Assembly (NCBI GenBank): GCA_016125135.1
Contig: WGMJ01000003.1
Location: 372,001-436,000 of the forward strand
Direction of reading: 5' to 3'
Source: Alphaproteobacteria bacterium
Lineage (GTDB): Bacteria > Pseudomonadota > Alphaproteobacteria > Micavibrionales > Micavibrionaceae
Length of the DNA: 64,000 nucleotides
This document shows, in pieces, positions 2,611 to 11,420 of the stretch (position 1 is its first letter; every line of letters starts with the position of its first letter). A program made the position numbers and the translations under genes. Below the pieces are notes generated by a model. The model saw only the letters and a list, made by a program, of their open reading frames with translations. It searched no databases and had not been told where the DNA came from.

Positions 2611-3049
2611 GGCGCTTCATCTTTATTACCCGTGGCTCCGTGCGCTCCATATTATTTCCGTGATCGCGTGGATGGCCGGTATGCTTTATTTGCCGCGCCT
2701 GTTTGCATACCACGCCGAAGCTGCGAAGGGGTCTGATAAAAGTGAAACCTTCAAGGTGATGGAGCGCAAGCTTCTTAAAATTATTATTAACCCTGCAATG
2801 ATCTCTACATTTCTGTTCGGGATATTGATGGTCGTGGCAAACCCCGCAATGTTGCAGCAAGGCTGGCTGCACGGTAAATTGCCGCTGGTGTTATTGCTGG
2901 CGGGTATGCATGGAATGTTTGCGAAATGGCGCAAAATTTTCGAGCGCGATGAAAATACACGCTCGGCTAAATTCTATAAAATCTGGAACGAAGTGCCCGC
3001 CGTGCTGATGATTATTATTGTCATTCTTGCGGTTGTGAAACCGTTTTAA
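2603..3049 (+). CDS. hemJ: Protoporphyrinogen oxidase HemJ
   Basis: Small four-helix membrane protein of the HemJ family, which oxidises protoporphyrinogen IX to protoporphyrin IX in bacteria lacking HemG/HemY. The N-terminal LRALHIISVIAWMAGMLYLP stretch holds the conserved His and the AWMAG motif. Four hydrophobic segments follow and the C-terminus is VILAVVKPF. I place the start at GTG 2603 (148 residues) because AGGGG at 2589-2593 is nine bases upstream; a TTG at 2597 would be too close to it. It overlaps the end of the MscS gene. The product supplies the substrate for hemH, two genes upstream in the same operon. Confidence 0.9.
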   Translation: MLEALHLYYPWLRALHIISVIAWMAGMLYLPRLFAYHAEAAKGSDKSETFKVMERKLLKIIINPAMISTFLFGILMVVANPAMLQQGWLHGKLPLVLLLAGMHGMFAKWRKIFERDENTRSAKFYKIWNEVPAVLMIIIVILAVVKPF

Positions 3050-3674
3050 GCAGCGTCCATAAGTATAGGCTTACAAAATAGAAAAGATAGACTTCCTCGA
3101 CTTCCTTGGGGCGCTCGAATTGTAGCGGCAGAATGGCTCCCATATGTTTGGCAAAATGGAAGAAGATCACGAAAACAGCAATCAACCAGAAACTGGCGGG
3201 CGGGCGGATGCGCTCGAGTAGTTTGGGGTAACGCAAGCTAAAACGCGGGCCGAGTGGTAGTAATAATGCACCGCCAACAACACCCAGAAACAGGATGAGT
3301 CGCGGGATCTGGTCGAACAATGCCGAAGTGTTGTGCAGGTTGGTTTCGTTCTGGTTATTAACACCAGCCCAGAATTCCGGTGTGTGCCACTCGAAAATAT
3401 GCTGGCCCCAGCTGAGCTCTTCGCCACATGTGTAGAAACAGCCCAAGAACGCAAGCAAGAACCAGATAAAGAGCGGCTTATCACCTTGCTTGTGTGAAAG
3501 CATCATGCCTTTAGCGGCAAAAAGAATACCCCCCAGCAAAAGCAGAGCTTCAAAAGTTTCATGCGGGCCGCCTTCGTTATGGAAGGCTGCTATATGCGTT
3601 TGTGGCACGAGCAACTCAATCGCAATTTGTGCGATAAAAAGTAGGATTGGCAGGGCGTAAAGGAAAAACCACAT
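3021..3674 (-). CDS. Conserved multi-pass membrane protein, function unknown
   Basis: 217 residues with about six hydrophobic segments. A central loop contains GEELSWGQHIF, a motif I associate with a widespread uncharacterised bacterial membrane family. No catalytic assignment is possible. It runs convergently to hemJ and overlaps its 3' end by 29 bases. It is last in a minus-strand block after the MBOAT and SGNH-like genes, separated from the latter by 14 bases, so it may belong to the same transcript. Confidence 0.7.
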   Translation of the reverse strand: MWFFLYALPILLFIAQIAIELLVPQTHIAAFHNEGGPHETFEALLLLGGILFAAKGMMLSHKQGDKPLFIWFLLAFLGCFYTCGEELSWGQHIFEWHTPEFWAGVNNQNETNLHNTSALFDQIPRLILFLGVVGGALLLPLGPRFSLRYPKLLERIRPPASFWLIAVFVIFFHFAKHMGAILPLQFERPKEVEEVYLFYFVSLYLWTLLKTVSQPQE

Positions 3675-10227: not shown

Positions 10228-10380
10228 TCAGGCAGCTTCCGCCATCTGGGCTTTCATTTGTTTTGCGGCCAGCGCATAGCCGCCATCGGCCGCGTCCACG
10301 AAATGGAAATGGTCACGGTCATAGTCAAAAATCAGGCAGGTCATCAAAGCGGCCGGCGCGGTGTGAAGTCCGTAAAATAT
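10228..10380 (-). CDS. C-terminal part of the DUF3095 protein in the -1 frame
   Basis: Fifty codons in the -1 frame relative to the upstream gene, entered at the A8 run (10387-10380 on the minus strand). They read IFYGLHTAPAALMTCLIFDY and then a segment with HFHFVDAADGGYALAA, ending in AQMAEAA. This matches my recall of the usual end of DUF3095 proteins (H.HF.DGA.GGYA.AA). If translated on its own, ATG 10344 would give 38 residues and overlaps the upstream stop (TGATG). If fused through a -1 slip, the joined protein is 397 residues, close to the family's usual length. No other gene fits this stretch. Confidence 0.7.
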   Translation of the reverse strand: MFYGLHTAPAALMTCLIFDYDRDHFHFVDAADGGYALAAKQMKAQMAEAA

Positions 10381-11420
10381 TTTTTTTGTCCGCGCATATC
10401 TTCCAGATAGGCGCTGAGGCGCTCTTTGCTCTCGGGTGTAATATCCATTGTGATGCGGAGCGCGTTATCGAATTTTATAAAATCAGAATGGGCAACAACC
10501 TCATCCTTGTAAGTGCGGCCGTCAAACCCGCCCATTTTAAAGCCCAAACCTGTTGCTGCGCGCCCGAACGTTGTAATTGCTTGTAGGAAAAAACCATAAA
10601 GAAAACGCTTTGCATCTTTGCGCCCGTAGGTTTTTACCTTTCGCTCACCATCTAACTGGCGGTTATTATTCGAGATTGTGAGTTGTGAAGTGCTCACAGG
10701 TTTCCAGTTTTCTTTTGCGCCGCAAATCGTTGGTAGATGATTGAGTATATCGCGGAAGAGTGCACTATCGCGCGTTACATCACCGGTGCGTCCCGTCACG
10801 ATCAGGCTCACATCAATACCGTTGCGGCTTTTTACAGGTTCCCAGCGACATTCAAATCCTTCAAAACTTGGCGGGTATTGTGCAAGTGAAGCCACATCAA
10901 AATGCGTGGTAGCAGCATAGTGTGTGCCGTTTTGCGGGCATTTGATCCATTGTTCCGCAAGCGAGACTCCTGCACCTGAAAGCGATGTTTGTGACATCAA
11001 GTCAGTTGTTGCGACTTTCGCAATGCGGATATCCCCCCCAGCCTTGCGCGAGGTGCCAACATTCACAAGGCCAACACGCATTTCGAGATCAAAGCAATCA
11101 CGCACCATGTTTGCTGTGCCGTATAAAGCTGCTGCGACTTTTAATTTAAACGACGGGGGAATAAGAAATGTTGCGCCGTCACCACCGAAAATATAACCGA
11201 TTTTCGTTTTATCAACAGCATTGATGACAGCTGTAATTGCACAAGCGCTTGCAATATTCACATCCTTGTAACGCCCTTCGGAGATTGCTTTTGTAGAGCC
11301 TGCAATATCAGCAACCGCAATATACCAGTCATCAGGGACGGGCTCATGCTTTGCAATGTCGCAAAGACCTTCATCAAGTGGAACTGCAGAAAGTGTGGCG
11401 TAAAAGTCTTCGTTTGGCAC
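10344..11420 (-). CDS. DUF3095 protein (adenylate-cyclase-like annotation in the family), ends early in frame 0
   Basis: 358 residues in frame 0. The N-terminal region has WYIAVADIAGSTKAISEGRY and GYIFGGDGATFLIPPS, which fit DUF3095 proteins and resemble class III nucleotide cyclase folds (Asp in VADIAGST, GGDG turn). Enzymatic activity is unproven. After residue 347 (GQKK) frame 0 runs into YFTDFTPRRPL and a stop, which does not look like a conserved end. The homologous end continues in the -1 frame across A AAA AAA (see 10228-10380). Either the gene is frameshifted, the assembly missed one A, or a programmed slip joins the parts. Eleven bases separate it from the DUF3108 gene upstream. Confidence 0.8.
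   Translation of the reverse strand: MPNEDFYATLSAVPLDEGLCDIAKHEPVPDDWYIAVADIAGSTKAISEGRYKDVNIASACAITAVINAVDKTKIGYIFGGDGATFLIPPSFKLKVAAALYGTANMVRDCFDLEMRVGLVNVGTSRKAGGDIRIAKVATTDLMSQTSLSGAGVSLAEQWIKCPQNGTHYAATTHFDVASLAQYPPSFEGFECRWEPVKSRNGIDVSLIVTGRTGDVTRDSALFRDILNHLPTICGAKENWKPVSTSQLTISNNNRQLDGERKVKTYGRKDAKRFLYGFFLQAITTFGRAATGLGFKMGGFDGRTYKDEVVAHSDFIKFDNALRITMDITPESKERLSAYLEDMRGQKKYFTDFTPRRPL

Follow-up and report, generated by a model that had tools for sequence, protein, structure and literature searches.

A DUF3095 gene is divided between two reading frames

The window analyzed here is a stretch of 64,000 nucleotides from a genome of the family Micavibrionaceae (GCA_016125135.1, contig WGMJ01000003.1, positions 372,001 to 436,000). 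On its minus strand, a DUF3095 (PF11294) open reading frame runs from a GTG start codon at 11420 to a TGA stop codon at 10344 (10344 to 11420) and encodes 358 amino acids, made up of 347 family residues and 11 out-of-family residues. The out-of-family residues, YFTDFTPRRPL, and the stop codon lie at 10344 to 10379 (minus strand), next to a run of eight adenines (A8) at 10380 to 10387, which on the minus strand is preceded by C and followed by TATTTTACGG. Frame 0 crosses the run as ...CAA AAA AAA TAT..., and the heptamer A AAA AAA at 10386-10380 stands in the X XXY YYZ phase of this frame, as originally predicted. The -1 frame carries the conserved DUF3095 C-terminus at 10228 to 10380 (minus strand). 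From 10380 it translates as IFYGLHTAPAALMTCLIFDYDRDHFHFVDAADGGYALAAKQMKAQMAEAA, with 50 codons (10380-10231) before a TGA that ends at 10228. An ATG of the -1 frame at 10345-10343 (minus strand) overlaps the frame-0 stop codon as TGATG, which also agrees with the original prediction, and would encode a 38-residue tail peptide.

In a six-frame Pfam search of the genome, frame 0 matched DUF3095 over positions 1-332 (E 1.2e-87) and the -1 frame over positions 332-378 (E 1.2e-16), and the two matches meet at the run. This search found no second DUF3095 copy in the genome. In a repeat search frame 0 scored 294.7 bits and the tail 61.7 bits (positions 336-378, E 8.8e-17), both above the PF11294 cut-off of 22.2 bits. 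The joined protein of 397 amino acids aligned over its full length with homologues that share 31-50% identity with it, and the eight-residue spacing between its YL-like motif and (I/V)(F/Y)YG was that of relatives (e.g. L008/L023 and L017). Homology confined the break to about 30 nt, where A8 is the sole long run, and one added A or a -1 slip recovered frame and spacing alike. The original prediction had proposed an unconserved frame-0 end 11 residues after A8, a family C-terminus reached by a -1 slip on A AAA AAA, and a joined length that fits the family, and all three parts held. Because the Pfam matches in two frames meet at the run and the joined protein is full-length with the spacing of its relatives, we take the split to be real in the sequence as given and not a matter of chance. 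An intact gene would be expected to keep one continuous frame through the C-terminus, an expectation that lies outside the Pfam definition, and here the frame is split at A8. Judged from the two profile matches on which the assignment rests, the gene is a broken or miscalled DUF3095 member.

Predicted fold of DUF3095 and effect of the truncation

The structure of an intact relative (L023, 1995-3185) was modeled with a pLDDT of 96.1 and a pTM of 0.93. The top Foldseek match of this model was a soluble adenylyl cyclase (E 4.1e-5), and VIA-align 2 placed 6yii first, an ATP-binding protein of P. aeruginosa that resembles class III adenylyl cyclases (Z 14.3, rmsd 4.1 over 280 aligned residues), in an alignment that covered both halves. 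DUF3095, whose function is unknown in Pfam, is thus predicted with high confidence to adopt a tandem (C1-C2 like) class III nucleotide-cyclase fold. Residues D36 (in VADVTNST) and D79 (in FGGDGA) of L023 were invariant in 55 homologues. They presumably occupy the metal-binding positions of class III cyclases and are candidate metal-binding aspartates. No match was found in the PDB by sequence, NCBIfam gave only a chance match far under its cut-off, PADLOC gave no match, and the literature search found no paper naming DUF3095.

The part missing from the frame-0 product corresponds in the L023 model to strands 346-353, 355-364 and 368-375 and helix 380-396. By this model, the frame-0 product is without the last three strands and the helix of the C-terminal cyclase-like half; it very likely has no folded second half and is probably non-functional. 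The predicted tandem cyclase fold may prove more useful than the frameshift.

Most homologues pass the site in one frame

Of 142 genomes examined from the order, 16 had the DUF3095 gene, including four in the family of the window; all 36 genomes of this family in the first sample lacked it. The gene is sporadic, and most relatives do without it. A further 80 loci came from one scan of the contigs of GTDB species, and a few of these repeat earlier ones. The tail was reached in one frame at 91 of the 95 loci compared, some of which are duplicates, and in three others (L013, L026 and L029) the contig ended ahead of the tail. In the remaining locus, L035 (a Nitrospina LS_NOB MAG, 2968-3168), a frameshift was found near GGGAGCATTATTTTATGG, within about ten residues of the break position of the window gene in the protein. 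It does not lie at an A-run, and the idea that L035 repeats the case of the window gene was rejected since the junction differs and the run is lacking. None of the homologous sites inspected carried an A-run, and the intact homologues examined passed through in one frame. The run occupies position 346, which is Lys here and Gly in 83% of homologues, and this difference suggests that the run arose in this lineage.

In the tail, one strongly conserved column out of 18 was altered (G377 to A), and the median among the other homologues was also one; in the body five of 57 such columns were altered, within the range of the others. By this comparison the tail is not decayed, which would mean that the real genome either acquired the shift recently or does not have it.

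The nearest homologue was about 48-50% identical and no closer ortholog was found. The comparison with relatives that the original prediction called for reached only to that identity, and a very recent origin of the split may still be compatible with a closest homologue at about 50%. Relatives were absent from viral contigs, and at E 1e-60 the class-wide sample of 385 genomes yielded no further match. Plasmids gave no close ortholog; all relatives on them were below 60% identity and the best was about 35%. Many plasmids of Rhizobium and Sinorhizobium carry a DUF3095 gene (records H1-H5), and a match was present in 249 plasmid records.

Homopolymer runs elsewhere in the genome

Some long-read assemblies are known to suffer from consensus indels in homopolymers, which break genes apart (PMC9262707). 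The genome was scanned for run-linked frameshifts by codon usage; the nine strongest flags at other runs proved to mark the starts, junctions or natural ends of genes, and the DUF3095 gene was the only clear run-linked frameshift in the scan. When 658 proteins drawn from 800 kb of G021, a genome of the same family, were searched against about 0.7 Mb of this genome, none of the 135 matched genes was split between frames, and a search of this kind that uses DUF3095 homologues as query does pick up the split here. Since none of these genes was frameshifted, the other flags were explained and in-frame A9 and A10 coding runs exist, a generally homopolymer-damaged assembly was rejected.

A/T homopolymers dropped sharply at length 8, from 127 runs of 7 to 13 of 8 in this genome (G000, 456 kb sampled) and from 186 to 14 in G021 (800 kb). 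In both, the fall from 7 to 8 was steeper than that from 4 to 6. This avoidance of A/T runs of at least 8 here and in G021 is consistent with instability of such runs.

An unprogrammed loss of one base is the best explanation

An unprogrammed loss of a single base in the unstable homopolymer of a sporadic and dispensable gene, either as a real recent mutation or strain variant or as a consensus error, is very probably the explanation of the locus. The ancestral sequence most likely read CAA AAA AAA ATA TTT TAC, with nine adenines, and the loss of one of them (A9 to A8) would put the last 50 codons out of frame. The cause may be a real slippage deletion, fixed or present as a strain variant in the sampled population, or it may be a consensus error at the run. 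Slippage of the ribosome or of RNA polymerase on A8 may incidentally yield some full-length protein, but nothing indicates selection for such leakage. A run of this kind makes an indel or a miscall likelier than it is at a random site, and the loss of one base explains everything seen. However, a well-kept tail would also be expected from functional recoding, and no close ortholog was found by which the event could be dated. The consensus-error half of the explanation is weakened because the assembly is not generally error-prone at runs and no other homopolymer frameshift was found in the genome. For the same reason, the clean record at other runs, the evidence leans slightly towards a real, recent deletion.

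In a prokaryote-wide survey, programmed transitions required a conserved site within the homologue cluster, and singletons confirmed by BLASTp and Pfam were considered likely sequencing errors or indels (PMC3711429). The window gene resembles those singletons in having one frameshifted member in a family whose other members keep a single frame, two halves that match one Pfam family and a poly-A site, and it differs from them in nothing of substance. The frameshift by itself matters little, being one more singleton at a homopolymer.

Rescue by slippage and phase variation

If the deletion is real, slippage of RNA polymerase or the ribosome on A8 could restore enough protein for the gene to be used and its tail kept. 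We consider this unlikely, although the tail is intact and coding-like. A cassette with seven adenines (A_AAA_AAA) gave about 10% frameshifting (PMC3711429), which makes some leakage at A8 plausible. Frameshifted genes rescued by slippage have been described, and productive slippage on eight adenines has been suggested for some IS elements (PMC1088944). However, avoidance of slippage runs is evident only at nine nucleotides in many genomes, where the slippage-prone length is A9 or longer as against A8 here, with a cut-off that differs among species (PMC1088944). Other coding A8 runs of this genome lie in intact frames, so A8 is tolerated, and a recent or artefactual deletion predicts an intact tail equally well. 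That A8 is real and fixed, and that the full-length cyclase-like DUF3095 protein is made only by slippage at a low set level, seems very unlikely. Homopolymer-frameshifted genes have been reported in Blochmannia (PMC3017870). Such pseudo-pseudogenes of Blochmannia and Buchnera (PMC3017870, PMC1088944) resemble the window gene in that a one-base indel in poly-A interrupts an otherwise intact frame that slippage could restore. However, the genomes of these endosymbionts are highly AT-rich, with many tracts of A9 or longer and several genes of this kind, whereas this genome has 48% GC and a single case was found.

On/off switching in the population through a change of run length between A8 and A9 is highly improbable. 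A homopolymer does lie at the break, and A/T runs of at least 8 are avoided here and in a relative, as unstable tracts would be. However, the tract is short, sits close to the 3' end and is not conserved in homologues, and the gene is predicted to encode a soluble cyclase-like protein and is not a surface or modification gene.

Programmed frameshifting and the phase of the heptamer

Programmed -1 ribosomal frameshifting at A AAA AAA, by which two products would be made at a fixed ratio as they are from dnaX and IS elements, was among the options first proposed for the locus. Its likeness to those systems lies in an A-rich heptamer in the X XXY YYZ phase, and the conserved tail does sit in the -1 frame. 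An upstream SD-like stimulator and a downstream stem-loop or pseudoknot are common at such sites, though not obligatory. In the 30 nt upstream of the heptamer, no GAGG, GGAG, AGGA, GGNGG or AGGKG was found (pattern set from PMC4066793). The 60 nt past a 5-nt spacer folded at -6.0 kcal/mol, weaker than about 95% of the coding windows of the 64,000-nucleotide stretch (mean -12.3), and a 75-nt stretch folded no better than shuffles (z +1.07), so that folding without pseudoknots gave no notable downstream structure. Unlike dnaX and the IS elements, the window gene showed neither stimulator in these searches, its run is missing from the homologous sites inspected, and it would have no sensible second product; the shift would yield the ordinary family protein, and the shorter product would contain a broken domain. 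Ordinary genes of this genome often carry the same heptamer, and the sporadic DUF3095 gene has no second copy frameshifted at this run. We consider programmed frameshifting most improbable. From the original list of options, an indel, A8/A9 variation and a sequencing error remain and are preferred, but a programmed frameshift found no support. Separate production of the truncated protein and the 38-residue peptide is scarcely credible, since the overlap of the ATG with the stop codon is offset by the lack of a ribosome-binding site seen upstream of 10345-10343 by inspection, by a peptide start within a core strand of the family domain and by the occurrence of this arrangement in no homologue seen.

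The canonical phase of the heptamer on its own is weak evidence for programmed frameshifting, because two thirds of coding A8 runs are expected by arithmetic to show it and most intact runs share it. Any coding A8 that starts at codon position 2 or 3 holds A AAA AAA in this phase. Of the 111 A8 matches in the genome, most (about 90) were retrieved with their flanks, and the runs counted were chosen for lying in sense orientation within long frames that stay open across them. A canonical-phase A AAA AAA alone should be treated as an uninformative sign of programmed frameshifting: the canonical heptamer was carried by 24 of the 31 intact coding runs of eight or more adenines, a set that includes one A9 and one A10.
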